Assembly (NCBI GenBank): GCA_963855995.1
Contig: OY979716.1
Span: 44,978,213-45,042,212 of the forward strand
Source: Muricea muricata
Taxonomy: Eukaryota > Cnidaria > Anthozoa > Malacalcyonacea > Plexauridae
Length of the DNA stretch: 64,000 nucleotides
Direction of reading: 5' to 3'
Shown here: one piece after another, positions 16,601 to 44,931 of the stretch
How positions within the stretch are numbered: the stretch's first letter is position 1
Layout: each line of letters begins with the position of its first letter
Program-made: the position numbers and the translations under genes
Notes under the pieces: model-generated
The model's input: only the letters and a program-made list of their open reading frames with translations
The model's database searches: none
Told to the model about the DNA's origin: nothing

Positions 16601-17771
16601 CAAGCAATGTGTCATGGATAACTCTTCAGAATGCCGGCATTCTGAAGAGGAACGATCGTTTTGGGGTACTTTTACCACAGTTGAAGTAGAAAAAGCTCTC
16701 GAGAAAGGGTATAAGATCTTAGAGATTCACGAAGTGTGGCATTTTGAAAACACATCGAACAGTTTATTCAGTGAATATGTGAATTATTTTTTAAGGCTAA
16801 AACAGAAAAGCTCAGGGTTTCCAGAATGGGTTCGCACACCCGAGGACCAGGAAAGATATATAGATGAATATAATAAGTATGAAGGAGTACTTTTACGTAA
16901 AGATAAAATTGTAAAGAATCCCGGATTGCGTGCATTTGCTAAACTATGCCTTAATTCGCTTTGGGGGCGTTTTGCAATGCGCACTGACAAAGTAATGACC
17001 GAATTCATTACTGATCCTTTACAATTTTACAAACGTATTAATGGAGCAGACATTGACATCCATGATCTTTGTTTAATAAATGATGAGCTGGTAGAACTCG
17101 TTTATAAACGCAAGCATGAATATGAGGTTGAGAGTAAAGTCACTAATCTTTTTATCGGAATATTTACAACTGCATGGGCTAGATCAGAACTCTACAATTT
17201 ACTTGACTTAATAGGGAAAAATGTTTGGTATGTGGATACGGATAGTTGTGTTTATGTCTCTAAACCTGGTGACCCACAGCCTGCTTTGGGGGATTTTTTA
17301 GGCAATCTTACTAATGAGATCACTCCCAAGCACGGCCTGGATGCTTATATTACACAGTTTGTTTGTGGGGGTCCCAAAAATTATGCGTATAAAGTTAGTG
17401 ATGGTAAGACACACTGTAAGATAAGGGGGTTTACTTTAAATTATAAGAACAGCTTAGTTTTGAACTTTGATTCTTTAAAAGAAACAATTTGTAAATATGG
17501 AAGTAAACGGGTTAGAGTTAGGGCAAGTAAAAATGAAAATAAATTAAAAGTTGTAAATGAGTGTAAAATCACCAGAGAGAGATGGACCCGTCGGATTGTC
17601 AATAAACGTGAAGAGAAGGAATACCAAGTTGTATTTGACAAGAGGATTGTCCTTGGTAAAGGCGAGGACACTATACCATATGGTTTCCACTGGAGTCCAT
17701 CAACTAGTTCTACGATAACCCCTACCGTTATACCACGAGTTCCTGACAATCTGCTGTACACTTTGATTTGA
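13622..17771 (+). CDS. PolB-2: Polinton DNA polymerase B in three exons, one premature stop
   Basis: Protein-primed family B polymerase, the replication enzyme of Polinton/adintovirus elements. Exon 1 is about 13622-13868, exon 2 13971-14115 and exon 3 14193-17771; both introns are short, phase 0 and canonical (GTATGT..TATAG and GTAAAT..TTAAG). Seen in order: a basic N-terminus, an OTU-like or Cys-rich region (GPCGLCEISKF, FFCQKC, CPDCFKICRSAQC), ExoI FYDFETD near 15.21 kb, ExoII IAHNAKGFDAV near 15.38 kb, ExoIII YCAQDVSILR near 15.78 kb, motif A DFTSLYP near 16.41 kb, motif B KLCLNSLWGRF near 16.95 kb and motif C YVDTDS near 17.23 kb. All catalytic motifs are intact. One in-frame TAG at about 14850 splits the frame. 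After the stop at 17769 an acidic tail reads on, with a frame change, to about 17921. Confidence 0.9.
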
Positions 17772-27186: not shown

Positions 27187-28505
27187 TTAGCCAGAGTAGT
27201 CATAAATGACGTTCCTTTCTGCATCAATTTGATTCAGATTTTCAAACTCTCCATAACACACGATACTCACGGCTGCTGCCGGTGCAGTTGAGAACTTGAT
27301 GTCAACTGTCAAATTTCCTCTTTGAACTGTACTGAAATGGGGTGACAACCCACACATATCGGCGGTCAGGTCAAAAGCAAAAATTGCATTTCCATTTGAA
27401 AACTCATCTCGTGATATATCGTTTCCCATGTTGTAATACATCTTCCCGTGCCGGAAAAAAGCATGGAAACGCCTCAATAAACCTTTTGTATGCACCGAAG
27501 GAGAGTTGAATCGGTTTAAACGGTATTGCTTCTCCATTCACGGATAATGCAACAGATGACATGTTAAAGTGTTGAAAATTGTACGGATTTTTCTTGTACG
27601 CCCTGTTAAACGCCTCGTTCTCGACTAATCCGAAGACGAATGTTTTCGGTTCAAGTCCACTAAAGACGTTATCTTTCACCAAGGATGGATTCCCGGCTGG
27701 AATAATAAAACTCTTGCACTCGACGCGACGTATGGGGTAGATTGCTGGTCCTTTTTTCAATGCAATTTCGTGAGCCATGGTGATGCTAGGGTTTACTTTA
27801 ACTTTACGTATTTTAAGATAGGCCTCGGTTAGTTTGACTCTGTAATCAGCGTCATCCACAGATGACATCAAACAAAACTCATGTCCATTTCGATTCAACA
27901 CAACTTTTAGATCGACAAAGCTGAGTAGCAGTCGTTCAGTAAAAAATACGTCGCAAAATATCGGACTAGCCAGCTCTATCACTCCACTTGTTTTGCTAAA
28001 CTGGTACCTCGCTTTAAGACCTTTGTTACCGTCTACAGCAGTAGGATCTGCCACTTCCATTTTCCCTGCAGTATCTTTGTAAAACAAGACTGCAGTGAGC
28101 TGAGACTGCTTAGCGGAAGACCATAATTGAGGAGGGTTTCGAGATAAGATCGGTAGCTATTGGTGCCCATAGCCTGTGTTACTTGCTTCTCTTTCAAATA
28201 GGCATCGACTTGTTTAAACAGACTATGAAGGAAATTGTTCATGACCCCAACCTTCTCACCCGTGTCGAAATCTGCGCCATCAGCTTTCGTCACTTTTGCT
28301 CTCACCACGAGAATTGTTTTTGACAAATCGATATAATCTTCTGTTCCCGGCGACAAAAAGTAATGGGGCCACTTTCTGTTACACTGGAAACAGTTTGGTG
28401 ATCTATCCAATGTCCCTTTTCCAAACTTACTTGTGTTGGAGGCATGGAAAATAAATCAAGCTCACTTTTTGTACATTCTTGCGACTTTGAATGTACGAAA
28501 TTCAT
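27187..28505 (-). pseudogene. Major capsid protein (double jelly-roll hexon) of element C, frameshifted
   Basis: Building block of an adintovirus/Polinton icosahedral capsid. The gene reads left from ATG 28505 in pieces: 28302-28505, 28033-28410, 27404-28087 and 27187-27537. Diagnostic stretches are FSMPPTQVSLEKG at the start, FLSPGTEDYIDLSKT, the central YPIRRVECKSFIIPAG followed by FVFGLVENEAFN, then NPYNFQHFN, and FAFDLTADMC near the end. Total length of about 440 residues fits the family. Three frame changes (about 28370, 28060 and 27470) mean no full-length protein. The gene sits between the basic core protein and the protease. Confidence 0.85.
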
Positions 28506-28507
28506 AT

Positions 28508-28990
28508 TTAACCAAATATATCTTTGGCACGAGTTGTTCTCCGCTTCTTGGACTGACTGCTTCTGGCAGTAGACGTTGATGCCTTTCTCTTTTTAGCAGT
28601 TGTTCTCCGTTCCCTCGCTCGACTGGTAGGTCTTTTTTTAGTCCGTTGTCCACTTCCTGTTTGAGCAAAAGTCTTAAGACGATTAATGGCTTTATCTCTT
28701 GCATCACTTACGGCCTCTTTTCCACGAGTTTTTATTGCCTGTTTCAAATCTTTACCGGAAGAAACATCCATAAGCACATTTGCCCCAGCGTTCAGTGCAC
28801 TTTTACCAAGGGCTTTCGCACCACTTTTAACCATTGGCATAACAGCTCTTGCAAGGCTTCTAAAAAGTCCTCCTAAACCGAATCCGACTTGACCATAACC
28901 ACGGATCCAGGGGGTTCCCGTAAAGATGGGCATTCCGTGTCCTTGTTGCTGGCCCATGTAGTAACGTACGTACTGATCTGTTTTAGTCAT
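28508..28990 (-). CDS. Basic core or minor capsid protein of element C (adenovirus pVI/pX-like in style)
   Basis: An intact ORF of 160 residues. The N-terminal half has a glycine-rich amphipathic stretch (YGQVGFGLGGLFRSLARA, then a VMPMVKSGAKALGKSAL segment) and the C-terminal half is very rich in Lys and Arg (RTKKRPTSRARERRTTAKKR). This plan, a membrane-active or capsid-lining start joined to a DNA-binding tail, recurs between capsid and penton-like genes in Polintons. The assignment is by position and composition, not by a catalytic motif. Its stop is three bases from the capsid ATG. Confidence 0.65.
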   Translation of the reverse strand: MTKTDQYVRYYMGQQQGHGMPIFTGTPWIRGYGQVGFGLGGLFRSLARAVMPMVKSGAKALGKSALNAGANVLMDVSSGKDLKQAIKTRGKEAVSDARDKAINRLKTFAQTGSGQRTKKRPTSRARERRTTAKKRKASTSTARSSQSKKRRTTRAKDIFG

Positions 28991-28993
28991 TGT

Positions 28994-29746
28994 TTATACA
29001 AAATAAGATGAACTCTGCTGCTTAAAATGTAGTGTCACTAACACATTTCCACGTTCAAATGGTACAGGTTTACCTGTATCATCTCTTAATACAATCTCAA
29101 TGTCCTCAAAAGATTTCGTTTGAACGGTCACATACTGTATGTTGGTAAACGTTTTTGCGAGAACTTCGCCCATTTTTCCTTGCTGGGGAACGCTTTTAAT
29201 CAGTTTGGCATTTGTATCTCCAACAACCTGAGGCTGTACAATATCACAATAAAAATATATCATCACTGTGCCGTTCAAGTCAGTGACATATGTACTCGTA
29301 GTTGTTTTTGTAATTTTTATTTCCTCTCCACCAAATCCCAAAATAATAGACAATCGTCCCATTAAAACCAATTGGTGACTATTCTTTACATGAACAGTTA
29401 CTTTTTTTCGAGCATTACACGTTAGTCTAATGTTGTCATTTCCTGTGTTTCTTTTTAATGCTGCATTGATCGATTTCACCAGATCGGCCATCGTGCCAAA
29501 ATAGCCACAGTCAACTATTGCCGTTTGAAAAATCAAACCGTCTTCACTGTAGTAAATGTGATTCTCGTGGTGTTGTAAAGTATACCATGTAATTGGATAA
29601 GAGATAGAGTATAAACTCACTTCCCAATCACCATTCAAATCAATGGCTTGTGGCAACTTTACACAATAACTAGTCGTCTTGTTATCGGGAAAGATATTTA
29701 AGAACGAGTTGCTTGGAAGCTCAAGATAAAAATGTGACCCACTCAT
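28994..29746 (-). CDS. Penton-like minor capsid protein of element C
   Basis: An intact 250-residue ORF. It begins HFYLELPSNSFLNIFPDN, followed by YCVKLPQAIDLNGDWEVSLY, a pattern typical of the second capsid protein of Polintons and adintoviruses (predicted single jelly roll, vertex position). The middle has LVLMGRLSIILGFG and a DIVQPQVVGD strand; the end has FERGNVLVTLHFK. The stop codon is four bases from the next gene's ATG, so the virion genes appear as one leftward unit. The ATG at 29746 is the first in frame and follows an AT-rich gap. Confidence 0.75.
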   Translation of the reverse strand: MSGSHFYLELPSNSFLNIFPDNKTTSYCVKLPQAIDLNGDWEVSLYSISYPITWYTLQHHENHIYYSEDGLIFQTAIVDCGYFGTMADLVKSINAALKRNTGNDNIRLTCNARKKVTVHVKNSHQLVLMGRLSIILGFGGEEIKITKTTTSTYVTDLNGTVMIYFYCDIVQPQVVGDTNAKLIKSVPQQGKMGEVLAKTFTNIQYVTVQTKSFEDIEIVLRDDTGKPVPFERGNVLVTLHFKQQSSSYFV

Positions 29747-29784
29747 TGTGAATTACAGACAAGAATAACATGACAACTACACAC

Positions 29785-30886
29785 TCAAGAGTTTAAAACA
29801 TTTATTTCAGAAGCATTTACCCATGAATTAAACTTGTTAGGATAACCTAACCATTTTACAAGATATTCTACTTTACTTCCCCTTCCGCGTTTTTTAAGAA
29901 TTTTTTCCACCTCATAGACATCATCGTCTTTGACAACCTTTTGCAGCTCTTTATCGTAAAACATTCCTTTAAGTTCCTCCCCGTCATAGTCTTTTAGTTT
30001 GTAAATGGGAGGGTCTCTTGGTAATCTTTTACTTACAACAAATATCTCGGTAGAAAAGTTTGGCAAATAAGATTTCTCAAATTTACGTTTAAGTTTACTT
30101 ATTTGTACCTTGTCTCCAACCTAAAATATATACTTTACAGGTTGTACGTTATCAAAAAAGCTATCGTATAGCATATGAAAGACATCATCCTCATTTTCTG
30201 TGTTGACAAGTGCGGGTTTCATCTTTATACCCCTATGTCGACTATGATTGTATGAATAGACCAAGTCGGGTAAAATTTCTAAATATCTCATCGTTTTCTT
30301 TGCCGTAAAATAACGCCACATCTTTGACTTAAATGTATGAATGACTCTTTCCACAATAGAGGCCTTTGTCTCGTTGAACGTATTGAAAAGTGTAATATCT
30401 TCATTCTTCAACAATGCTTGAAATGATTTGTTGAAAAATTCTGTTCCCTGGTCTGTCATGATCTTTTGGGGTTTTCTGCCCGAAGCTTCGAAGTCCGACT
30501 TTAAAAGCTTCAACTATGGCAGGACCCGTTTTTGACTTGATTGGAACTATCCATGCATACTTAGAGAATACATCTATACAGACGAGCAAATATCTATATT
30601 CATCATTATACTGTTTTAAAGACTGCATGTCTGCTAAATCCATTTGCCACTCTTCGTCTATACCTCCCACAATTACACAATTCCTCCTAAAGTTTTGACG
30701 AGCTGGTTTATGTAAAGTATAAGTATCTTGACTCAATAACCAGTCTGAAATTTGTTTTCGACTTAATTTAAACTTTTCCTCTTGCTTTACATCACAGTAT
30801 AAACTTTCAATTCCTCCGAAACTTCCTAGACGTTTTGGATCATAATAAACACTTTTTAAGTACTCATCAACTGTTGACTGGTCCAT
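29785..30886 (-). pseudogene. Element C integrase with C-terminal chromodomain, frameshifted
   Basis: Retroviral-type (rve) DDE integrase of the Polinton family, which inserts the element into host chromatin. From ATG 30886: an N-terminal helical region, then the first catalytic Asp in EEWQMDLADMQS, the second in IMTDQGTEFFN and the Glu in ASIVERVIHTFK. The frame changes between about 30515 and 30405, and again between the catalytic part (end 30121) and the chromodomain (29785-30066). The latter shows DVYEVEKILKKRG and YLVKWLGYPNKFNSWV, an aromatic-cage fold that may guide insertion to methylated histones. Confidence 0.9.
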
Positions 30887-33049: not shown

Positions 33050-34762
33050 ATGGCGGCCGTGGTGAGGTTAGTATGTATGTTAGTATGCGTAAAAATTGTA
33101 CAGGATGATGAATCAGAAAAAAACTGATGCCTTTCTAACATTTCTTATTCTTTATTAGCACACAATATAGTGATGTTCTTATGATACAGTTGTTGAACGA
33201 CAGCAGTGAATCGAGTTCTAGCAGCGATGAGGAAGATCTTGATTTGGTGCTTTTTGAAGAAATGTTTCCAGTGGGAAAGTTGAATGATAAACCGTTGATA
33301 AATTTGCAGGATCTCAGCGACCAACAGTGTGAAAAAATGTTTAGGCAAGTATTTTAACTGTTCTTGATGATCTCTGAAAGTAAAGCTTTTCTATTTTAAC
33401 TCATTTCAGGTGGTTCATTCGAGTTTGCAATGAATACTTTAGGGTTTATAGAAAATTATCAACAAACTCATTTTTTTCCACCCAAGGTTTCATAAAGAAG
33501 ACATACCTCGTCGTTTTTCCGCTGGGCGTCTGGAATGGAAGCTTTGCTGATTTTCCTCAGAAGACTAGTTTATCCAAACAGGTGGTATGATTTAGTGGAC
33601 ACATTTGGAAGAAGTGAATCTGAGTTAAGCCTTATTTCCAACAAGGTATACTTTTTACTTGTTTTCATCAAAGAACCGACATTTGTTTGACATTACAGTA
33701 TTAAATTATATTGGGTCTGTCTAGATTTTGGATGATCTTCATGATCGATTTGGCTATCTGTTAAACACTTTGGACCTAGTTTGGCTTGACCCTGAGGTCT
33801 TCTCCAATTCAATTCATGAGAAAGGGGCACCTTTGGCTCAGTGTTGGGGATTTATTGACGGCACAGTGAGGCCAATTGCACGTCCAGTCAGAAATCAACA
33901 AATAATGTATAGTGGGCATAAGAGAACTCACTGCCTGAAATTTCAGGTATGATGAAATTTAGAAGGTTATAGTATAATTTTTGCAAATCAGGGATGGTAG
34001 ATTATATAAATAAATAAGCCAAACCCTCATTAGTGTCTTTAAGAAAAAGAAATACAAATACAAAAAAAAACAAAAGTCAAATACAAAGAAAAACAATGAG
34101 CATTGTTTAAAGTTTGGCTTATTTATGCAGGCAAACTACCAACCCTGGTGTAAATTTCCAGCTGTTTAAACAATGAGCATGCTGCCAAATGAAAACTGCA
34201 AGCTCCTGCCCCTCTTATACTATATGACCATGCACTATATATTTTTGCAAATAAAATTTTAAACTGAATAATTAATTTTCATAATTGACTTTTTCAGCCA
34301 GTGCATGCCCCAAATGGCCTGATAGTGAACATGTTTGGACCTGTGGAAGGACGCAGGCATGATGCATTCATGCTTGGTGTTAGTGGTTTGCCAGAAAAGT
34401 TGAGAAGGCTTCAACTTCCCAATGGAGATCCTTATGTTGTTTATGGAGATCCAGCATACGGTGTGACTGACAACATTTTGGCTCCATTTCGTGGCGCATT
34501 TTTAACAGTTAAAGAACAGGAATTCAACAAGCGCATGAGCAAGGTTCGGGTAAGCGTGGAATGGGCCTTTGGAAAAATTACTCAGTATTTTGCTTTCTTG
34601 GACTTCAAGAAAAATCAAAAAGTTTTACTTCAGCCTATTGCCAAGTACTATCTTGTTGGAACTCTTTTGGTGAACTGTCACACGTGTTTATACGGATCAC
34701 AAACAAGTTCATATTTTGAGCTTCAACCTCCATCCTTGGAAACCTATTTGTTGAATCAATGA
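33050..34762 (+). CDS. PIF-Harbinger transposase (DDE_Tnp_4), five exons
   Basis: Cut-and-paste transposase. Exons are about 33050-33066, 33159-33344, 33487-33645, 33725-33946 and 34298-34762; donors are GTTAGT, GCAAGT (a GC-AG intron), GTATAC and GTATGA, and all acceptors are AG. The acidic N-terminal exon has ESSSSSDEEDLDL. The catalytic Asp residues lie in WGFIDGTVRP and YGDPAYGV and the Glu in VEWAFGKI. One frame change inside exon 3 (about 33535) removes part of the region after FHKEDIPR. Intron 4 contains a MITE. The convergent partner gene at 34932-36756 is the Myb-like protein that Harbinger transposases need. Confidence 0.88.
33989..34147. mobile_element. MITE in the Harbinger intron, related to 62524-62646
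   Basis: Ends CAGGGATGGTAG and CTACCAACCCTG. Internal inverted pair AAATAAGCCAAAC (34010) and GTTTGGCTTATTT (34112), and CTCATTAGTGT shared with the copy at 62524. Flanks TTGCAAAT and GTGTAAAT look like a decayed eight-base duplication, pointing to hAT. Confidence 0.7.
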
Positions 34763-36756: not shown

Positions 36757-36847
36757 CTTTCTAAAAAATATCGGAAGAACAGAAACACATCGTACTTAAC
36801 AAAAACGTGATTATAGATTGAAACGCTAGATTAAAAAAATTGTGCTT

Positions 36848-36878
36848 CTTTTTTTTTATTCTTTGAGAATAAAAAAAG
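36848..36878. repeat. Palindrome at the left edge of the element D gene block
   Basis: C(T)9ATTCT, loop TTG, AGAAT(A)7G, just upstream of the first D gene at 36885. It resembles the gene-end palindromes found at 38.5, 43.7, 43.95 and 44.37 kb. Confidence 0.7.
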
Positions 36879-36884
36879 TAAAAT

Positions 36885-37251
36885 ATGGAATTTGAATTTT
36901 ATAAGATGTTATCACGGTACCATAACATTGACGAACGATATCGTGAAACAAAAAAGTTTAAGGAACTCTATAAAATTGCTGTATATGAGATCCTTCAAAA
37001 TAATGAGAATGCTACACCTATTATACATCAATATTTAAAAGATAAATTTTTAGAACCGTTTACTAGAGTTGGTATATGCAAACAAATACGGTATATTTTA
37101 TTACCTATTCTTTGGAAAGATCATCGGGCGGAATTGTCGAAGCACATATTGTTCGTACGATCGTTAAGCCGTACATTTGGGACTTAAATTTAAAATGGTC
37201 AAAAATGACAGCAATGGATAAATTAAAATATCATGAAAAAAGTAACGTTTA
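36885..37251 (+). pseudogene. Element D hypothetical protein with one frame change
   Basis: The first 85 or so residues (MEFEFYKMLSRYHNIDERY, IYEILQNN-like helical region, FTRVGICKQIRYILLPILW) read in one frame; a one-base change near 37130 moves the likely continuation to another frame (HIVRTIVKPYIWDLNLKW, ending at the TAA at 37249). Its end overlaps the start of the next small ORF at 37233. No family recognised. No signal or membrane segment. Confidence 0.5.
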
Positions 37252-37397
37252 ACGATAACGTGCAAGTACATGTTATACCCAGGGAACCGCGGCGTGGTAC
37301 GTGGTTTGTAGATAGATGTAGGTTTATGCAACGTGTGCACGAATTGGAACGATTGTTTAAAACATGTCAAACTAGCTGGCCCAGCACGTCAAGCTAG
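37233..37397 (+). CDS. GADD34/PPP1R15-like PP1 adaptor, 54 residues (element D)
   Basis: An intact mini-ORF. It begins with the PP1 docking motif KVTF (RVxF class) at residues 3-6, followed by alternating Val residues (NVQVHVIP) and then RRGTWFVDRCRF at residues 20-31 and a helix rich in Glu and Arg. The order RVxF, hydrophobic strand, RxG.W, DR.RF is the conserved core of the GADD34/PPP1R15 family, whose members bring protein phosphatase 1 to eIF2alpha and reverse translation arrest. Known viral relatives are ICP34.5 of herpes simplex and DP71L of African swine fever virus. The similarity was judged by eye. It could be chance in so short an ORF, but the two motifs are in the right order and spacing. 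It overlaps the end of the gene before it. Confidence 0.65.
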   Translation: MKKVTFNDNVQVHVIPREPRRGTWFVDRCRFMQRVHELERLFKTCQTSWPSTSS

Positions 37398-37553
37398 CTG
37401 CCCCACCAAATCATAAACAGATTTAAGCACCGCCAGCAAAAATTTAAACAAAATTTTTTTGTATAAATTTATTACAAATTTGTTTAGTTTTGTTCAAGCA
37501 GTTCGGCTCAGAAAATTTTAAACAAATTTGTTTAAAATTTAAAGAAATAAATA

Positions 37554-37829
37554 ATGGAAGAAACTAAAATTACGACGGTCGAAAAAGTTAAGAACCCAAA
37601 ACGCGTCGAACAAGGAAAATGTCTGGCCGCTATTTCAAGGGAAGCCAAAGCTCGTAAAGCGGCGGAACGTGCAAAGGTAGAAGAATGTGTCGAAAATGCA
37701 AATATATTCTATGTAGCTGTTGCAGGTCTTGGGTACGGCGTACATACGTATTTTTTAAAACCACAACAACAACAGGAGGTACAACAACCACAAGTACAGC
37801 AAGAACAGCCGAAAAGAAAAATTTTGTAA
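37554..37829 (+). CDS. Element D small membrane protein, 91 residues
   Basis: An intact ORF. Charged N-terminal helix (CLAAISREAKARKAAERAKV), one short membrane segment (IFYVAVAGLGYGVHTYF) and a Gln-rich tail (QQQQEVQQPQVQQEQ) ending in a basic RKIL. Start chosen at the first ATG, directly after AAATAAATA, the AT-rich leader found before most D genes. First of four small membrane-protein genes in a row on the plus strand. Confidence 0.6.
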   Translation: MEETKITTVEKVKNPKRVEQGKCLAAISREAKARKAAERAKVEECVENANIFYVAVAGLGYGVHTYFLKPQQQQEVQQPQVQQEQPKRKIL

Positions 37830-37854
37830 ATATTTCGTTATAAAATAAATAAGA

Positions 37855-38082
37855 ATGTCGTTAACGAAAGAAGTTAAACGGACTTTACAATGCAGGATTA
37901 ATCACGCTTGGGGCGTTTGGTGTATCGATGCTGAGTCAGAAACTATTGAAAGACGGTCTTGGGGTAACGCGTTCTGCGTCAAGTGTACTCCGGTTGGCAT
38001 CGGCCGTTGGAGGAGGATCGGTCCTGGTAAAATTTTTGCAGAAAAAAGACTACGTTCCGGCCAATCCATTTAAAGCTTCGTA
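37855..38082 (+). pseudogene. Element D small membrane protein, frameshifted
   Basis: The ATG frame opens MSLTKEVKRTLQ; a frame change near 37893 brings in a much more protein-like reading with two hydrophobic stretches (LITLGAFGVSMLSQKLL and SASSVLRLASAVGGGSVLVK) and an end in YVPANPFKAS at TAA 38080. The uninterrupted 72-codon ATG frame is Trp- and Cys-rich and looks like a shadow. Preceded by ATAAAATAAATAAGA. Confidence 0.5.
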
Positions 38083-38091
38083 AATAAAAAA

Positions 38092-38346
38092 ATGGCAAGC
38101 GTCGTAGCGGGTGGGTTATTTAATGCCGTCGCATTTGCAGGTGCCGGTTACGTTTTTCACAAATTGGATAAGAAAGGCTACGAAGATGAAATGAAACGTC
38201 ATAATTTGGCTATGGAACAATTAACGGCTGCAAAAGAAAAATGGTACGAAATAACCGTCGAGAAGAAAAACAAAATAGCATTGTTGCGACAACGTTTAAA
38301 CGATGCCAACAAAGATTTAGACAATACAAACGAAGCCTTACATTAA
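38092..38346 (+). CDS. Element D membrane and coiled-coil protein, 84 residues
   Basis: An intact ORF. An N-terminal membrane or amphipathic segment (VVAGGLFNAVAFAGAGYVF) leads into a long charged coiled coil (EMKRHNLAMEQLTAAKEKW, then NKIALLRQRLNDANKDLDN). I recall proteins of this plan near capsid genes in invertebrate Polintons, but no function is established. Starts 10 bases after the stop of the gene before it. Confidence 0.65.
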   Translation: MASVVAGGLFNAVAFAGAGYVFHKLDKKGYEDEMKRHNLAMEQLTAAKEKWYEITVEKKNKIALLRQRLNDANKDLDNTNEALH

Positions 38347-38359
38347 TCTAAGGACAGCG

Positions 38360-38497
38360 ATGGATGAAGATGTAGGACCAGAACCGACATTAAACGATTA
38401 TTACGAACCATCCGACGACATGAAAATGTATATGAATGTTGTCGTTTGCGTTACGGGATCGGTAGCAGTAGTTTTAGTGAGTAAAATGTTGTTTTAA
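38360..38497 (+). CDS. Element D single-pass membrane protein, 45 residues
   Basis: Short intact ORF: an acidic start (MDEDVGPEPTLNDYYEPSDD) and a single membrane helix (MNVVVCVTGSVAVVLVSKM). It begins 13 bases after the preceding stop and ends three bases before a perfect palindrome. Its short length lowers confidence, but composition and tight packing support it. Confidence 0.5.
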   Translation: MDEDVGPEPTLNDYYEPSDDMKMYMNVVVCVTGSVAVVLVSKMLF

Positions 38498-38499
38498 AT

Positions 38500-38527
38500 A
38501 TTTCATAACCTTAAAAGGTTATGAAAT
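38500..38527. terminator. Gene-end palindrome after the 45-residue ORF
   Basis: TTTCATAACCTT, loop AA, AAGGTTATGAAA: 12-13 bp perfect arms, three bases after a stop. It lies between convergent gene sets. Confidence 0.55.
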
Positions 38528-38611
38528 TACAATACATATCTCGTTACCAAAAACCCGATCCCGATCGTACTTCCCAAAAGATAAGGTAGGTGGTCGTTTG
38601 ACGTTTTAAGG

Positions 38612-38639
38612 AAGGTCCCCGTTTCAGGGACCTTTTTTT
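38612..38639. terminator. Hairpin with T-run at the end of the 437-residue gene
   Basis: AAGGTCCC, loop CGTTTCA, GGGACCTT, followed by T residues. The stop codon of the minus-strand gene (38624-38626) lies in the loop, so the palindrome spans the 3' end of that gene. Confidence 0.55.
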
Positions 38640-39937
38640 ACCGGTGTAACAGGCGGGGGTTTTTTTGCCACCGGTGCAACGTAATTCACGTTCATATTAA
38701 CACCAAATTTCATAGCGTTTGTTGTGAGCGTTAACACGTTGTTGTAGCCTTCGACTTTGTTTTTGAGGATAATCATATTGGATGGAATTAAAATAATACA
38801 TGGCGTTATTGCCATATTGAGAACGACGTTTGTATCTTGGATGGCCTTTCGCATATCCGAAATGGATTTTGATGGATTATCTTGCACTATCATGTCTTCG
38901 ATGAGTCGATCAAATATTTGCTGGGTTTGTAACGATTTCGCACCTTGTCCTACAATAGGCCAACGTGTTTGTGCTTGCGCTCCTAAAACGCTATAAACGT
39001 AGGATTTGATAGCCGATTGAAATAAGACTTGTCCCGTTTTTGTAAGACCATTGCTATCGTCTTTGATGAATCGCATCCAATCAGTCTCCGAATCGTTGAC
39101 GAGCCTTGAGACTTCTTCGTACTCGATCCCGAGCACGCCAGAATTATTAGCCCTCATTCGGTACCTATAATTCCTAATATTATTTTTATTCGCATGATGC
39201 GAATGCCAATAGTTGATATCGGCACGCGTATGGTCAAATTTTTTAACCCAAATTTTTTTAGACGGGATATTTTTTTGTATAATTTCTTTCATATCGTTTG
39301 TAATGTACGGTGACATTTTTTGTAGATCACTTGTAAACCTTTTCATGTGGTAGTAGATGTAATACCGTGCGATACTCGTAATAACGTTATTACCACCCGT
39401 TAAATGTTTTCTGCTGATTCCACCAACGTGTGAAATAATATAGGCAGCTAATAACGATGCAAAATACGGATCGTCTTTGTTCACAGCCATTTTTGTAATA
39501 TCATTAACAGTACCTTTCCACGATGTAGTTAAAGCATCGAAATTACTTGTGAACCCAGACCTTGCATTGACATAAATAGTAAATTTCCTATAATTATATG
39601 GCAATGTTGCCGACGATAAGACGAACGGTTGGACCGTACCGCTCGTATCCCATATTCTCGGTAACCAGTGCAATTCTCCTGCATAAAGTTTTTTAAAATC
39701 TTCTGTCGTAATGTCTAAAAATTGGTCGTCGCGGACTTTAAACGATACGCTCGTTTCGGTGACGTCACCGGTTTTTGATAAGACGACGTTAAATCTGAAC
39801 CTGTCTAAATGTGCGTTTGGATATTTTTGAACGAATTGTCGTTCCATCCGTTTTTTGGTATTCTTTAAATTTCTTAATGCCTTATTATAATATTGTCTAT
39901 ACGACGTTTCGTATTTTTTAAAGTCTTCTTCAGACAT
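38624..39937 (-). CDS. Element D orphan protein, 437 residues, intact
   Basis: The longest intact gene of element D. The N-terminus is helical and basic (YRQYYNKALRNLKNTKKRME), followed by a mixed region with FRFNVVLSKTGDVTETSVSF and LHWLPRIWDTSG, a middle with HVGGISRKHLTGGNNV and KIWVKKFDHTRADINYWHSH, and a Lys/Pro-rich end (KKPPPVTPVKKGP). No signal peptide; one hydrophobic patch (VVLNMAITPCIILIPSNMII) near residue 385. I know no family with this pattern. Size, conservation of the frame and place beside the integrase suggest a structural or DNA-handling protein, as inference only. The ATG at 39937 follows an AT-rich leader (CATTTTATT on the plus strand). Confidence 0.8.
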   Translation of the reverse strand: MSEEDFKKYETSYRQYYNKALRNLKNTKKRMERQFVQKYPNAHLDRFRFNVVLSKTGDVTETSVSFKVRDDQFLDITTEDFKKLYAGELHWLPRIWDTSGTVQPFVLSSATLPYNYRKFTIYVNARSGFTSNFDALTTSWKGTVNDITKMAVNKDDPYFASLLAAYIISHVGGISRKHLTGGNNVITSIARYYIYYHMKRFTSDLQKMSPYITNDMKEIIQKNIPSKKIWVKKFDHTRADINYWHSHHANKNNIRNYRYRMRANNSGVLGIEYEEVSRLVNDSETDWMRFIKDDSNGLTKTGQVLFQSAIKSYVYSVLGAQAQTRWPIVGQGAKSLQTQQIFDRLIEDMIVQDNPSKSISDMRKAIQDTNVVLNMAITPCIILIPSNMIILKNKVEGYNNVLTLTTNAMKFGVNMNVNYVAPVAKKPPPVTPVKKGP

Positions 39938-39959
39938 TTTATTGGATATCCTTAATATC

Positions 39960-40998
39960 TTTAATCAGAATCCATGACCGGCTATCGTACCCTAACCATT
40001 TTACTAACGCCATACCGTTCTTTTTTCAAAGGACTTTTTCTATTCTATACGTATCGTCTTTTTTGTTGACCGCAGATAATTTTTAAATTTCCCGATAATC
40101 GGTTCCCCTTCGTGATCCTCTATTTCGTACATATTAGGGTCTCCTCAGAATACTTTTGATATTTTAAATATTTCTTCTGTAAAATTTGCTTTGTAACCTT
40201 TTGCAAAAATACTTTTGAATTTATTCACCCTGACCGTATCTCCTATCCTAAACTTAGGTAACGGTAAATCCCCAGTAGCGTGCCCGTAAACGTAGTCCAT
40301 ACCATATTTTCGTTAGTTTTGTTTACGTCTTTTGGTTTCATAAGAATACTACTGTGTTTGGTATTGTTATAATTTTTTGTAAGTCCGTCTAAAACATCGA
40401 CCCAGTTGTACGTTCCTTTACTGTAAAAATATTTCCACATCATTGTTTTTAAAGTCCAATTAAACCTTTCGACGATAACGGCTTTCTTATCGGAATGCGT
40501 AGAAAAATAGTCTACGTTATGACTTTTCAGAAGATCCCTAACACCGACGTTATAAAATTCTTTTCCTTCGTCAAGCTGAGCAACGTTAGGATATTTCCCA
40601 AACCTTTCTTTAAAGTTACCTAGTGGTAGGTTGACGGCTTTAGTCATATTTTTAGTATCCTTTCGGTAAATGGGTATCGTAAACGCATATCAGCTAAGAA
40701 TTTCTACAGATGTTAATATCCATCAATACCCTTTGTTTTTACTCGCGTATTTTCTCATATCTACGAGGTCCATTTGTATTTGATCTGCAAGGTTTTTTAC
40801 AAAGGTTTTTCGGAATTTATGTTTCCGAATGACAGGCTTGTATCTCGTGTAAGTGTCTTGCGTTTCTAACCATTCTTTGACAAGTCGTCTACTTACTTTT
40901 ATTCCATCGGCTTTTGCTTTTTGATATAATTTTTCTGCAGATTGGTAACCTTCAGAAGAATCATAATATATATCCCGTAATTCCTGTTCGTTGATCAT
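39960..40998 (-). pseudogene. Element D integrase with chromodomain-like tail, broken
   Basis: Polinton-type rve integrase, clearly different from the element C copy. The N-terminal piece (40723-40998) has RDIYYDSSEGYQSAEKL and the first catalytic Asp in IQMDLVDM. Two in-frame TGA codons (near 40725 and 40690) separate it from the second piece (40243-40647), which has NVAQLDEGKEFYN with the second Asp and AVIVERFNWTLKTMMWK with the Glu. Downstream, 39960-40240 carries an SH3-like strand set and a chromodomain-like end (ALVKWLGYDSRSW) with stops. The premature stops are TGA, compatible with CpG decay after insertion. Confidence 0.88.
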
Positions 40999-41017
40999 AT
41001 TTTTATTCGATATATAA

Positions 41018-41674
41018 TTAAAACATGACGGTTAACCCGACGTCGTAACCAATATTTGTATTCACGTCAAATTCAAACATGCTATGATTACCATTCAATA
41101 CCGATACCGACGTATGGATATTATCGTATACCGTTACGGATTCGTTTAAGCTTTGTTCTTTCGTGACCGGAAATCGTGCAAATGCTCGGCTTGGATTTCC
41201 GTTCTTATCGAAATTCCTATCGGTATTGACACAATTACATCCGATCGTAATATAGCGTAAACCGCGGTTAATATCAACAACCGAAGGTGATTTCGTTTTG
41301 GTATTTATTGGAATAATTGCATTAGGTGGGAAGCCAAGTAAAGGACCGAAATGATGCAAGTTTAATTTTTTTGGTGAAAGAATAGTGCAGCGGTTATCAT
41401 GCATATGACGTTCTAACGTAATATTTGATTCAGCTAAACGGTCGACGATCATATTAAACGTCCAGTACCCTTCTTCGAACCCCACGCCCGTTGTAGGATG
41501 GTCCGAAACCGTTATAAATTTAATAAGATTATTAACGTTCGGACAAACGTTCTTATATTTCCATAATACGCTAATATTTTTAACATATATTTTTTCACCG
41601 GATATCGTCGTAATACATTTCCAGAGAAAAACGTCGGTTTTGCCCGTATAGAGCGATAACATAAGTTTATCCAT
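41018..41674 (-). CDS. Element D penton-like minor capsid protein, 218 residues
   Basis: An intact ORF. Features of the Polinton second capsid protein include GVGFEEGYWTFNMIVDRL, KLNLHHFGPLLGFPPN (compare LSIILGFG in the element C protein), GLRYITIGCNCVNTD and FARFPVTKEQSLN, with an end in MFEFDVNTNIGYDVGLTV. The similarity to the element C protein is in layout, not letter by letter, so a related virion protein such as a fibre base is possible. It is transcribed away from the 172-residue gene; the two ATG codons are 13 bases apart within a palindrome. Confidence 0.6.
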   Translation of the reverse strand: MDKLMLSLYTGKTDVFLWKCITTISGEKIYVKNISVLWKYKNVCPNVNNLIKFITVSDHPTTGVGFEEGYWTFNMIVDRLAESNITLERHMHDNRCTILSPKKLNLHHFGPLLGFPPNAIIPINTKTKSPSVVDINRGLRYITIGCNCVNTDRNFDKNGNPSRAFARFPVTKEQSLNESVTVYDNIHTSVSVLNGNHSMFEFDVNTNIGYDVGLTVMF

Positions 41675-41691
41675 TTTATTTAATAAAATGG
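41671..41691. promoter_or_regulatory. Palindrome holding both start codons of a divergent gene pair
   Basis: CCATTTTATT, centre T, AATAAAATGG. The ATG of the leftward gene (41674-41672) and the ATG of the rightward gene (41688-41690) lie in the two arms, leaving no room for a separate promoter between them. Both genes must be driven from inside the neighbouring coding sequence or from this palindrome. Confidence 0.7.
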
Positions 41692-42206
41692 ACGATATTG
41701 AATTAGATAATCTTGGCGACCGACCTGTAGAAGAAGAGGAGGAGATAGGTGAAGAAGAAACAATTACGGATTGGCGGGACGAAAGTGTTATTATTATTGG
41801 CAGGTTTAATCCAGAAATACGTCAAGGTTTGGATGCAGAAAAACAAGCCGACCGTGAATTAGGTAAAATTCAAGGTGTTAGGAACCGAGGGTATACGGAA
41901 GATAAGAAAAACCTCCTTAGGGAATTAGGTATTCAATTAGGCAAAGGGGACGGTCCATCTGCAAAAAGTGTTTTTGAAAAACTAAAAGTAACCGTGAATA
42001 GGAAAGGGAAGGTGAACGGTGCAGAATTTGATGGCGTCCGAATTATTGTACAAACAGGTAAAAAATTAGTTTATACGGAAGACGTAAAAAAATTATCGAA
42101 AGTCAACGAATTTAAAGAACTCGTGAAAAAAGCTGAATTGGAACATAAAAAAACACCTGCGGCTCTTGTAGAAGAAACGTTACCGGATATATCGGTAAGC
42201 AAATAG
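41688..42206 (+). CDS. Element D acidic hypothetical protein, 172 residues
   Basis: An intact ORF. The first 30 residues are strongly acidic (VEEEEEIGEEETITDWRDE). The rest is charged and helical, with LLRELGIQLGKGDGPSAKS and VRIIVQTGKKLVYTEDVKKL. No membrane segment and no known motif. Its stop is one base from the next ATG (42208), which suggests joint transcription with the membrane gene downstream. Confidence 0.65.
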   Translation: MDDIELDNLGDRPVEEEEEIGEEETITDWRDESVIIIGRFNPEIRQGLDAEKQADRELGKIQGVRNRGYTEDKKNLLRELGIQLGKGDGPSAKSVFEKLKVTVNRKGKVNGAEFDGVRIIVQTGKKLVYTEDVKKLSKVNEFKELVKKAELEHKKTPAALVEETLPDISVSK

Positions 42207-42207
42207 C

Positions 42208-42803
42208 ATGACGATTGATAAGGAAAAAATACGCGAATTTCGTGGCATTACAAAAACATCCGATCATAATTTAGATAACGGTGGTTTAAAAGCACAAGAA
42301 GAATATTTCGCGAACTTGCTGCGAACGAACTGAACGTATTGAAAAAAAAATTATACGAAGAAATGGCCGAAGTGTGCGTATTAAAAGCTGACGAAATCCG
42401 GCTATGCCGTTATACGGCCCGAAAGCACTACCGTTCAATCTATGGTTGAAGAAGAAGCACAACGTAACGACTTGACGCGTTTCGAACGATTTAAACGATG
42501 GACTAAAAAAACCTTGGCGGTATGTCTGTGGTTGCTATATCGGTTGCGGGTATTATAACAACTACCGTTATGGGTGCACGGACCGCGATTAAAAAAGGTG
42601 CACGAGCCACAAGTAAATTTCCGAAAGCACTTGCAAAATTAGGTGAAAAAGCCGCTCCGATTATCGGCGGTCTATTAAATTTAACGGCAAAACTATTATC
42701 GTTAGGTGCAGACGCCGTTGGGTTTTTATCGAAAACTTTATGGTTGTTAGCCGTTGGATTAGCGTATTTGTTGTACGAAAAAAAAAGAAAGACTACTAAA
42801 TAA
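42208..42803 (+). pseudogene. Element D membrane protein, broken by frame changes
   Basis: Starts MTIDKEKIREFRGITK; frame changes near 42315 and 42410-42520 interrupt a helical region (ANELNVLKKKLYEEMAEV, then RFERFKRWTKKTL). The intact C-terminal part (42522-42803) has three hydrophobic stretches: VVAISVAGIITTTVMGARTA, IIGGLLNLTAKLLSLGA and LSKTLWLLAVGLAYLLYE, with a basic spacer (KKGARATSKFPKALAKLGEK). It lies just before the major capsid gene, a place where membrane-active capsid-lining proteins are often found. Confidence 0.6.
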
Positions 42804-42806
42804 ATT

Positions 42807-43130
42807 ATGAGTAGAAGTGAAGAATTAAAGCCTGGTTATAAAAAAACATCGCTCCTTCCAGAAGAAATAAGAGGAAGAAGAAAATGTCTCGTATCACCAC
42901 TTCAAAAAACACAAGCAAAGCCTGGAGATATTTACTACGTCAATATGCCGGAATTAAATTCAAGTCAATGTATTATTCCGGACACGATGGTATTATCGTT
43001 TAAATTTGAAAATAGTAATACGAAATCATGGTTTTTAAACAATCTTGGAAGATTACTTGTCGATCAACTCAAGGAGAATTGACTCAAGGAGTCTATCAAA
43101 ATACAAGCGAAAGTATGATTGAAGTTTACC
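42807..43130 (+). pseudogene. Element D major capsid protein, only the N-terminal quarter
   Basis: The start (LLPEEIRGRRKCLVSPLQKT, then KPGDIYYVNMPEL and NNLGRLLVDQL) is the N-terminus of a Polinton-type double jelly-roll capsid protein of a different branch from element C. After codon 91 a frame change occurs beside a duplicated ACTCAAGGAG, a few more residues (NTSESMIEVY) are readable, and the gene ends at about 43130 inside the oppositely oriented fibre gene. Most of the capsid gene, over 1 kb, is deleted. Confidence 0.65.
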
Positions 43131-43454
43131 TTGTAGTTTAGTACTTATAGTTTGATCACCTTGGTTGCCTTTAGGACCCTGTGGGCCAGGGTCACCTTTA
43201 TCTCCTTTCAAAGAACTCCCACTACCCAGATCACCTTTGTCTCCTTTCGGTCCCTGTGGCTCGGTATTACCTTGAGGTCCTTGATCGCCTTTAGGACCTT
43301 TCGAAGAACCACTACCAGAATAGTGTGTGTCCGCGTATGCTTTCGTCACAGGTTCAGAACCTGTAACCGAGCTTGGTAGGTTTATAATCTTATTCCCGAA
43401 CATATCGATATCTTCCTCTATCAGACTCGATGAATAACCGAACAATAACGACAT
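43053..43454 (-). CDS. Element D collagen-like fibre protein, 3' end replaced
   Basis: The start (IDMFGNKIINLPSSVTGSEP, then VTKAYADTH) matches the attachment segment used widely in phage tail fibres and viral collagen-like proteins. It is followed by Gly-X-Y repeats (GPKGDQGPQGNTEPQGPKG, KGDPGPQGPKGNQG) with one imperfect triplet. The last 28 or so residues are read through the antisense of the capsid remnant, so the real C-terminal knob is missing. Probably a trimeric receptor-binding or surface fibre. Preceded on its own strand by an AT-rich leader. Confidence 0.75.
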   Translation of the reverse strand: MSLLFGYSSSLIEEDIDMFGNKIINLPSSVTGSEPVTKAYADTHYSGSGSSKGPKGDQGPQGNTEPQGPKGDKGDLGSGSSLKGDKGDPGPQGPKGNQGDQTISTKLQGKLQSYFRLYFDRLLESILLELIDK

Positions 43455-43474
43455 TATTTATTTTTCTATAAAAA

Positions 43475-43679
43475 ATGGGTTGTGCAACTTCAAAGAACGA
43501 GGACAAGTGCAACAAAGACGTACGCAAAAAAAGAAAAATTCTCACGGGATTCCACATGTCCAGAGATGCCGACAGAATAGAAAGAAACTTTCAATACGCA
43601 ATAGAAAGAAAAGCAAAAAAAAATGTATGAAAAATCAGTCGTTAAAGAAGAAAAACCTATAGTTAAAGAAGAAGAATAA
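43475..43679 (+). pseudogene. Element D small protein with N-terminal acylation motif
   Basis: Starts MGCATSKNEDKCNKD, an ideal site for N-myristoylation at Gly2 with palmitoylation at Cys3, followed by a basic stretch (RKKRKILTG). The ATG frame stops at 43630; a one-base change in the A-run near 43614-43622 would join it to an acidic Lys-Glu tail ending at TAA 43679. If real, the protein would bind the inner face of a membrane. The next 30 bases are a palindrome. Confidence 0.5.
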
Positions 43680-43681
43680 TT

Positions 43682-43709
43682 TTTTTCCTATTTTCTAAAA
43701 TAGGAAAAA
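43682..43709. terminator. Palindrome filling the gap between convergent stops
   Basis: TTTTTCCTATTTT, loop CT, AAAATAGGAAAAA: 13-bp arms. The plus-strand stop ends at 43679 and the minus-strand stop begins at 43710, so it exactly fills the gap and could act for both. Confidence 0.65.
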
Positions 43710-43946
43710 TTAGATTAAAATTTTAGTTAACATACTTACAAATACAGCTACAGGTACCCAAAATATTAACGTGTCTAAAAACGTACTAAATTCACGACAT
43801 TTTTCAGAAACTTCATCATATGTCCCAATTAATGCTCTTGCAAATCCAGGATATTTTTCAGAAATTTCATCACATATTTTAATTAACTCTTCTGCAATTT
43901 CAGGGTCATAAACTTCATTAATTAATTCTTTTAATCTATCAATCAT
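43710..43946 (-). CDS. Element D small C-terminally anchored membrane protein, 78 residues
   Basis: An intact ORF. An acidic helical part (RLKELINEVYDPEIAEELI, then YDEVSEKCREF) precedes a single C-terminal membrane helix (TLIFWVPVAVFVSMLTKIL), the layout of a tail-anchored protein. Two imperfect internal copies of I.DE.SEK. (CDEISEKYPGFA and YDEVSEKCREFS) suggest an internal repeat. Its ATG lies in the next palindrome. Confidence 0.6.
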   Translation of the reverse strand: MIDRLKELINEVYDPEIAEELIKICDEISEKYPGFARALIGTYDEVSEKCREFSTFLDTLIFWVPVAVFVSMLTKILI

Positions 43947-43973
43947 TTTATAACTTTTAAAAAGTTATAAAAT
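43945..43973. terminator. Palindrome between two minus-strand genes
   Basis: ATTTTATAACTTTT, loop A, AAAAGTTATAAAAT: 14-bp perfect arms. It follows the stop of the 112-residue gene (43987) and touches the ATG of the next gene (43946). Confidence 0.65.
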
Positions 43974-43986
43974 TTTCACTCGCGAT

Positions 43987-44325
43987 TTAAAATTTCGTAG
44001 GAGCCATACAGACGTGCTTGCGAATCAACGCATCGTACACGTTTATATGCAATCTAGGTAGATTGTCTTCACCGTCGGTAAAATTAATCTGCCTAATTTC
44101 AAGCACGGCTTTTACGTCGCACGCCACCTTACCCACGTATTTGGAATACTCCACTTCGTTGGCACCTTCGTAAAGTTTTGTATCAGTCCTTAAATAAGCG
44201 GACCATAATTCTCGTGCTTTTTTTTTAACTTCCATATGACGAATCCGGCTTTTTAATCCGTGATTAACACGATATTGTTCTGCATTAGGAATATCAAATG
44301 GACTGCTCATTTTTTGGTTTTCCAA
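43987..44325 (-). CDS. Element D hypothetical protein, 112 residues
   Basis: An intact ORF with a helical basic region (KSRIRHMEVKKKARELWSAY) and a strand-rich second half (KVACDVKAVLEIRQINFTDG, LRLHINVYDAL-like end). Its last residues (LIRKHVCMAPTKF) resemble the end of the 75-residue protein at 44644-44871 (LFVREHVRMVDTEW), suggesting that both share a short C-terminal motif. Function unknown. Confidence 0.6.
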   Translation of the reverse strand: MENQKMSSPFDIPNAEQYRVNHGLKSRIRHMEVKKKARELWSAYLRTDTKLYEGANEVEYSKYVGKVACDVKAVLEIRQINFTDGEDNLPRLHINVYDALIRKHVCMAPTKF

Positions 44326-44367
44326 AAAAAAACACTTTTGGAAGTCTGCGATTTTTTTAATAAAAAT

Positions 44368-44396
44368 GTTTTTATAATCTTAAAGATTATAAAAAC
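44368..44396. terminator. Palindrome over the stop codon of the 72-residue gene
   Basis: GTTTTTATAATCTT, loop A, AAGATTATAAAAAC: 14-bp perfect arms. The stop codon of the minus-strand gene (44380-44382) lies at its centre. Confidence 0.65.
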
Positions 44397-44598
44397 CATG
44401 TTTTTTTAAATTACACGGTACTGCCTCGGGGCATAACATAATGCTATCCATGTTATCGTCCTTTAACAAAGTTACTAACCAGAAATCATTGTCGTCGTCA
44501 AATTTTACTTTCACTTGCGATAAACCAAACACCGATTCCAAATCGTATAAGTTCAACTTGGATATAATTGTATAATAACTTGGATGATAAAGTTTCAT
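44380..44598 (-). CDS. Element D hypothetical protein, 72 residues
   Basis: An intact ORF with strand-like content: LYDLESVFGLSQVKVKFDDD and FWLVTLLKDDNMDSIML, ending KKHGFYNL. No membrane segment. The palindrome over its stop and AT-rich leader before its ATG follow the D gene pattern. No family recognised. Confidence 0.55.
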   Translation of the reverse strand: MKLYHPSYYTIISKLNLYDLESVFGLSQVKVKFDDDNDFWLVTLLKDDNMDSIMLCPEAVPCNLKKHGFYNL

Positions 44599-44643
44599 TG
44601 TATTACAATTTTCTGAAAAACTTTTTTAAATTTTCGCGATTTT

Positions 44644-44871
44644 TTACCATTCTGTGTCGACCATACGAACGTGTTCGCGGACGAACAACGTTGACACGTT
44701 GTCTAATTTTAATGACATTGATGTCGTCTTGAACCTCTTATCTTTTTTCACGCCAAACGAAAAACACTTGTCTGTTTTTAAAAACACTGATTTATCATCG
44801 TTCGTCTTGATTGGAATCATCTGCATACCTCCGACTTTCAGTGATTTCACAGTTTCAAAGTATAAAGACAT
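44644..44871 (-). CDS. Element D hypothetical protein, 75 residues
   Basis: An intact ORF (LYFETVKSLKVGGMQMIPIK, then KCFSFGVKKDKRFKTTSMSL and the end LFVREHVRMVDTEW). The end resembles that of the 112-residue protein at 43987-44325. Last recognisable gene of element D; beyond it are a looser palindrome at 44932-44961 and unrelated sequence. Confidence 0.55.
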   Translation of the reverse strand: MSLYFETVKSLKVGGMQMIPIKTNDDKSVFLKTDKCFSFGVKKDKRFKTTSMSLKLDNVSTLFVREHVRMVDTEW

Positions 44872-44931
44872 TATTGTTTTATTAACATCCTGAAATTTTG
44901 CTTTTAAATTTTCTCAATTTTTTTGACTTGG

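Follow-up and report, generated by a model that had tools for sequence, protein, structure and literature searches.

A PPP1R15-core homologue in Polinton-type elements of the octocoral Muricea muricata: a candidate PP1 adaptor

Does a virus-like element integrated in the genome of an octocoral carry a cut-down phosphatase adaptor of the GADD34 type, and what might such a protein do? The question is raised by a frame of 54 residues that runs uninterrupted from ATG to stop at positions 37233-37397 on the plus strand of the window, by which we mean the whole stretch of 64,000 nucleotides of Muricea muricata DNA analyzed here. The original prediction described its product as an adaptor similar to the PPP1R15/GADD34 core, and the motifs on which this was based were confirmed in the translation, namely KVTF at residues 3-6, VQVHVI at residues 10-15 and RRGTWFVDRCRF at residues 20-31.

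Direct family searches pointed to PPP1R15 at modest significance. The sole Pfam family matched by the 54-aa ORF was PP1c_bdg (PF10488), with 17.1 bits and an E-value of 0.0048, below the curated cut-off of 26.1 bits, and this model matches only two of five family members at all. In the PDB, the top structure was PPP1R15B (4v0u; E 0.0022, residues 2 to 47 aligned), which was also ranked top by a profile of five members (E 0.0025); with a seven-member profile, Septin-14 (E 0.094) outranked PPP1R15B (E 0.23). Such modest E-values, together with the observation that unrelated ORFs in the window also reach Pfam E-values of 0.001-0.01, would fit a chance resemblance, in which an unrelated small protein happens to contain a generic RVxF motif. 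The direct family searches were thus insufficient, with a score below the Pfam cut-off and spurious hits of similar E-value, and we therefore used the coral's own genome and octocoral profiles.

When the 54-aa ORF was searched against the genome (453 Mb in 74 contigs) in six frames, 15 matches were obtained: 13 element copies (L001-L013, of which L013 is truncated), one fragment (L015) and, as the only other match, one host gene (L014; E 0.014). Counted from the first ATG of the retrieved sequence, the frame of the host gene is 541 aa long, and it is open for 569 aa in the genome search. It ends in a PPP1R15 core, scores 28.5 bits against PF10488 (cut-off 26.1) and has PDB matches to DP71L, PPP1R15A and PPP1R15B. 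Since the core and the Pfam score identify this gene as PPP1R15, the query had found the host's own PPP1R15. A protein search with the host core recovered 16 relatives at E-values of at most 1, the closest three of which are 94-96% identical; among the 16 is an uncharacterised protein (P0018, 77% identity) from the octocoral Dendronephthya gigantea.

An HMM of 17 octocoral PPP1R15 cores was then scanned against 3067 stop-to-stop frames of at least 30 aa from the window and 12 element flanks. The highest score went to the window ORF (28.2 bits, E 2e-7), followed by nine other copies (19.2 to 26.8 bits), the fragment (12.7 bits) and the truncated copy (7.2 bits), and the best frame other than these reached 5.1 bits. 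No match was found in two carriers (L023 and L026) with a stop at Trp24, nor was an antisense frame of 68 aa with a TTG start, which covers the same stretch of the window (37164-37370), among the matches in the 3067 frames. Out of 20,000 shuffled sequences made as a control, 19,215 were scored with a maximum of 13.3 bits, compared to 15.1 to 28.0 bits for seven real element proteins. Furthermore, hhalign aligned the element profile to the octocoral cores with a probability of 97.6%; the alignment starts at KKV-x-F, stops where the helix ends and shows 48% identity in 44 columns. The same values, 48% over 44 aligned columns, apply to the host protein P0009.

A chance resemblance is thus extremely improbable: the host PPP1R15 was recovered out of a 453-Mb genome, no scored shuffle attains the real score, and the profile match is collinear over 44 columns. 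The homology proposed in the original prediction is supported by the host gene, the octocoral HMM and hhalign; the profile match to PPP1R15 stood with the octocoral cores, which match clearly, and not with Pfam, where the direct score remained below the cut-off. To judge from the alignments, the 54-aa ORF is almost certainly homologous to the core of PPP1R15 (GADD34/CReP) that binds PP1, actin and eIF2alpha.

The copies form a small family. A pattern of ATG plus a KVTF-like motif recovers 12 of the 13 element copies in the genome, and the five-member profile identified six relatives (P0002-P0007, E at most 8.3e-21) among about 5.8 billion proteins, two of which correspond letter for letter to copies in the genome (P0003 to L004, P0006 to L003). 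The remaining four (P0002, P0004, P0005 and P0007) differ from every copy in L001-L015 and may originate from other species or assemblies. One more protein from this search (P0008, E 7.6) represents the fragment L015 and was left out of the count. The ORFs of L010 (C2:49827701) and L011 (C2:44963213) are identical over the stretch compared, in opposite orientation and about 4.9 Mb apart, reflecting either a recent duplication or an effect of the assembly. In both L009 and L012, which are copies from different subfamilies, the Trp24 codon is replaced by a stop.

How much of the cellular core is retained? The PPP1R15 proteins of octocorals (L014/P0009 and P0010-P0025) are 389-574 aa long with the core at the end, and share with the element protein the motifs KKV-x-F, RExRxGTW and DRCRF..R...LE as well as their order. 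The element protein consists of the core alone, terminates earlier and has lost a stretch that precedes RExRxG, which reads MRHWDFAY in the host. In comparison with the human proteins PPP1R15B/CReP (4v0u) and PPP1R15A/GADD34 (7nzm), the Arg, the Trp and the RF helix motif are shared, as is the RVxF motif with PPP1R15B. The putative RVxF-type PP1 docking motif KKVTF (residues 2-6, 37236-37250, plus strand) aligns with K639-F643 of PPP1R15B, such that V4 and F6 correspond to V641 and F643, which have an RVxF role in PP1 docking as described in PMC4394352. The segment from R20 to W24 (37290-37304, plus strand) aligns with R658, of the Arg pocket of PP1, and with the invariant Trp, W662 (W582 in PPP1R15A), and the spacing from KVTF to the Trp is one residue short relative to PPP1R15B. 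Further downstream, D27, R30, F31, Q33, R34 and V35 align with D588, R591, F592, R594, R595 and I596 of PPP1R15A, of which F592 and R595 contact actin and R591, R594 and D588 face eIF2alpha, according to PMC8500838.

Across the seven element proteins, the docking motif [VI]-x-F and the Trp are present in all, and the Arg four residues upstream of the Trp in five; this pocket Arg is missing from P0002 and P0004. On the helix side, R30 and F31 are invariant and R34 is retained in six of the seven. The position of R594 is a Gln in the window ORF, as it also is in the octocoral protein P0020. The link from W24 to D27 of the helix motif is three residues shorter in all seven element proteins than in the 17 octocoral and the two human cores, and the sequence after the helix (beyond LE-x-L, where the R612 site and the LSAVL segment of DP71L are located) varies among the copies, with no conserved counterpart of R612, which acts in the C-terminal part of the PPP1R15A core (PMC8500838). 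Because the spacing between W24 and the helix is unlike that in the cellular PPP1R15 proteins, we prefer the term PPP1R15-core homologue to regular member of the PF10488 family.

An AlphaFold2 (AF2) model of the 54-aa ORF consists of an extended first half and a single predicted helix at residues 24-47 (37302-37373, plus strand), with a mean pLDDT of 70.6, rising to 89 for residues 31-40, and a pTM of 0.36. At this level of confidence, the predicted fold matches the two-part architecture of the PPP1R15 core outlined in PMC8500838.

Short viral versions of PPP1R15 are known. The African swine fever virus protein DP71L, with a short form of 70-72 aa, is a viral PPP1R15 copy (PMC5346070), and like the element protein, DP71L (9nb9) is a short stand-alone viral core. 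The element profile matches DP71L weakly (E 0.87), and in its alignment with the host core there is no gap after the Trp, unlike in the element proteins. Herpesvirus ICP34.5 and granulovirus coGV-gp036 are also viral PPP1R15 proteins (PMC4394352) and come from other virus groups. A literature search gave no report of a PPP1R15/GADD34-like gene in Polintons and no relevant phosphatase report for adintoviruses.

The shortened link may bear on the function of the protein. It could be that the ORF encodes a PP1 docking protein derived from PPP1R15 with an altered output, which binds PP1 and perhaps actin but does not lead to dephosphorylation of eIF2alpha and instead acts as a decoy that sequesters PP1, or retargets it to another substrate. 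This would be consistent with the loss of three residues between the Trp and the helix in all seven proteins, with the variable C-terminus, with the retention of the PP1-docking half in most of them, and with the finding that DP71L without residues 52-66 lost eIF2alpha dephosphorylation (PMC5346070). However, R30 and F31 on the actin and eIF2alpha side are invariant and only one of the seven proteins lacks R34, a conservation that a pure decoy of PP1 would need, and as three residues correspond to approximately one helical turn, the face of the helix may be roughly kept. We therefore consider an altered output rather unlikely, and favor as the probable reading a GADD34-like mechanism in which PP1 would be directed to eIF2alpha.

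The 54-aa ORF lies inside element D, which on the basis of DNA similarity to other copies extends from 36833 to 44887 in the window and is interrupted by a gap at 43129-43229. Related elements have the remainder of the capsid candidate and the ATPase at about this place, and element D lacks both; no match to type-B DNA polymerase (PolB) was found over the extent of the element; element D is a decayed provirus. No inverted repeat of at least 30 nt was found to bound it.

Downstream of the 54-aa ORF on the plus strand, the ORF list and the flank comparison identify two small conserved ORFs of 91 aa (37554-37829) and 72 aa (37855-38073), followed by a conserved ORF of 84 aa (38092-38346) that we used as a marker of the element family. 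On the minus strand follow a conserved ORF of 437 aa (38624-39937; ORF list, Pfam scan and flank comparison), a broken integrase (40145-40998) in three frames (40145-40300, 40243-40647 and 40723-40998), and an ORF of 218 aa (41018-41674; ORF list and flank comparison). The integrase pieces in the window have no rve match in Pfam themselves; for their open relative of 277 aa in the carrier L016, the rve match has an E-value of 2.2e-6 and reaches 28.3 bits, where the cut-off is 32.6. We suspect that the 218-aa ORF is a minor capsid protein; its relative in L016 had no match in Pfam. A conserved ORF of 172 aa (41688-42206, plus strand; ORF list and flank comparison) is followed by the N-terminal remnant of a longer protein (42807-43082, plus strand), for which similarity ends at about 43129 and which is open for 329 aa in L030. 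By their position, this remnant and its relatives in L028-L031 are candidates for the double jelly-roll major capsid protein of Polinton/Maverick elements, and the candidate ORF in L030 had no match in Pfam or the PDB. The last ORF, on the minus strand at 43053-43454, is collagen-like, with a score of 20.4 bits, which is below the cut-off, and 92.7 bits for its relative in L029.

For 12 further copies, we compared the 10-kb flanks with the ORFs of the window. Relatives of the upstream gene, the 84-aa ORF and the 437-aa ORF were each found in 11 of the 12 flanks, of the integrase in ten and of PolB in four; in the twelfth flank, the match to the 84-aa marker sits just beyond the compared stretch. 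The PolB of carrier L021 scores 69 bits against PF03175 (cut-off 25.8), and in sequence that extends beyond four of the carriers, an A32-type packaging ATPase (PF04665) was detected with 62.4 bits in L030, 22.9 bits in L028 (cut-off 22.8) and, below the cut-off, 16.7 bits in L029. Collagen-like ORFs were identified in L029 and L031 (66.2 bits in the latter). The carriers thus share with Polinton/Maverick elements and adintoviruses a type-B polymerase, an A32-type packaging ATPase and a putative rve-like integrase, and the residence of the 54-aa ORF in elements of this type, as originally predicted, is supported by these genes. Scans of viral contigs with the 54-aa ORF, the 84-aa marker and a piece of the integrase returned no relative.

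The carriers also contain GIY-YIG nucleases (L031:1589-2182, 34.1 bits; L030:2707-3180, 16.1 bits and below the cut-off), which have a zinc-finger-like C-terminus and are located near the collagen-like ORFs. The window itself holds other mobile sequences. A DDE_Tnp_4 transposase fragment (34301-34762, 54.6 bits) is located to the left of element D. PolB fragments at 8979-11664, the first pieces of which show 70-78% protein identity to the PolB of L021 and L023, derive, as judged from this similarity, from a second, incomplete element of the carrier family. The regions 14193-17771 and 27404-30886, with a long PolB ORF (PF03175, 165.4 bits) and a minus-strand cluster that includes an rve-like integrase (25.1 bits, below the cut-off), likewise represent, by their gene content, further Polinton material beyond element D.

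How could such a short ORF be expressed? The upstream gene (36885-37252, plus strand) is split in the window into two frames (36885-37187 and 37076-37252), and has a relative in L016 that is open for 158 aa. The second frame overlaps the start of the 54-aa ORF by 20 nt. An overlap of about 20 nt is also seen in L002, L003, L005 and L009, where the upstream frame enters the 54-aa ORF in another frame, and in L001 and L004, where it has breaks further up. In L007 the upstream frame continues in-frame to give an ORF of 105 aa, and in L006, L008, L010 and L012 it stops before reaching the 54-aa ORF. The start ATG is present in 11 aligned copies, which were collected with a pattern that itself demanded an ATG; in the own-genome search, which is independent of this pattern, all 13 element matches start at residue 1 or 2 of the query. 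From this layout, translation by termination-reinitiation and from an own transcript both seem possible. Programmed frameshifting from the upstream gene was considered and set aside, since the copies with an overlap would require a +1 shift.

We also considered the possibility that the ORF is a relic, a piece of the host PPP1R15 that travels with the elements and is neither expressed nor used. Few elements hold the ORF, some copies are broken (the Trp24 stops in L009 and L012, and the truncated L013), and the element in the window is decayed, all as would be expected of a relic. An analysis of substitutions in 41 codons of eleven distinct copies, excluding L011 (identical to L010), L013 (truncated), L015 (fragment) and L014 (host), gave a pooled pN/pS of 0.26, in a sample which was collected by protein similarity and hence is biased toward conserved copies. 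Pairwise dN/dS between the three subfamilies was 0.08-0.35 at dS of about 0.3-1.6. Within the subfamilies, where there are few changes, it ranged from 0.12 to 1.34, a spread that fits decay after integration. The maximum likelihood estimate of dN/dS was about 0.25 (lnL -437.1 versus -447.6 at a ratio of 1, with kappa on a grid). The copies of the 54-aa ORF are under purifying selection, in three sublineages. The low ratios between subfamilies at such divergence, the start of all 13 element copies at query residue 1 or 2, and the retention of the ORF despite differences in the order of the genes around it, make a relic improbable in our view.

Two gene orders were observed, in that the 437-aa ORF and the integrase are located upstream of and on the same strand as the 54-aa ORF in L022 and L024-L026. 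The element family is abundant in the genome, and many copies have open marker frames of 130-140 aa. A search with the 84-aa marker gave 150 scored matches among 231 candidates, some of which are partial, compared to 13 places with the 54-aa ORF, and ten of the 150 adjoin known copies. To examine the others, 30 places outside the known carriers were checked, of which 20 were best-matching (L032-L051) and ten more distant (L052-L061); one place among the top marker matches, C29:32578, was not included in the 30. The tblastn search recovered no 54-aa ORF upstream of the marker in these 30 places, the weak matches in L054 and L059 (E 0.14-0.38) being on the wrong strand or fragments. In L038, a match of 12.1 bits (E 0.026) to the element HMM was seen. 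In 18 of the 20 best-matching places, the gap between the upstream gene and the 91-aa ORF mostly consists of a different upstream-gene tail followed by a stretch of variable length; the site of the 54-aa ORF is highly variable here and may harbor other accessory genes.

In a marker tree of 32 elements, which covers 12 carriers and leaves out L027 (no piece found), L052-L061 and the other marker matches, the carriers fall into three groups, two of which are carrier-only (support 100 each) and one of which contains five carriers and four other elements (support 77). With three carrier groups and absence from most relatives, the 54-aa ORF is a patchy accessory gene that has either undergone repeated gains or losses or been transferred by recombination. 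Absence from related elements, which had been named as a ground for rejecting the original prediction, was thus found for most of them, but three sublineages do carry the ORF, and purifying selection acts on it there. Since most related elements lack it, the 54-aa ORF is not required for their spread.

Where did the gene come from? In a tree of 26 sequences (17 octocoral, seven element and two human), all element proteins group in a single clade (support 99) that joins the octocoral protein P0017 (support 78). The human cores likewise join inside the octocorals, at P0015 (support 73), which suggests an effect of long branches and makes the nesting weak evidence about the source. The GTW, FM and HELE residues common to the element proteins and P0017 provide a better hint of the origin than the nesting. 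Taken together, the sequences suggest that the 54-aa ORF was most likely captured from an octocoral-type host PPP1R15, and another cnidarian is a possible source.

We propose the following scenario for the GADD34-like mechanism that we favor. A Polinton/Maverick-type virus lineage carrying a cut-down host PPP1R15 core would have integrated into the octocoral genome. The extended first half of the protein, with KVTF, R20 and W24, would wrap PP1, while G-actin and the eIF2alpha domain would be bound by the helix half, which contains D27, R30, F31 and R34. PP1 would then strip the phosphate from eIF2alpha, such that viral translation could continue. The binding of PP1 and actin, eIF2alpha as the substrate, and a counter-defence against a PKR/PERK-type shut-off are all steps that we infer from the known adaptors.

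The broader hypothesis, to which we assign even chances, is that Polinton-type viruses of cnidarians captured a host eIF2alpha-phosphatase adaptor and reduced it to a minimal core of fewer than 50 conserved residues with a shorter link between the Trp and the helix. If true, phosphorylation of eIF2alpha would be an antiviral barrier in early-branching animals, and the gene would come and go at an accessory site within these elements. The natural shortening between the Trp and the helix would also make it possible to test how large a part of the PPP1R15 core the targeting of PP1 requires. An octocoral Polinton version would bring counter-defence by PPP1R15 to a further group of DNA viruses and to a host outside the Bilateria; it suggests an antiviral role of eIF2alpha phosphorylation in Cnidaria, which is directly testable.
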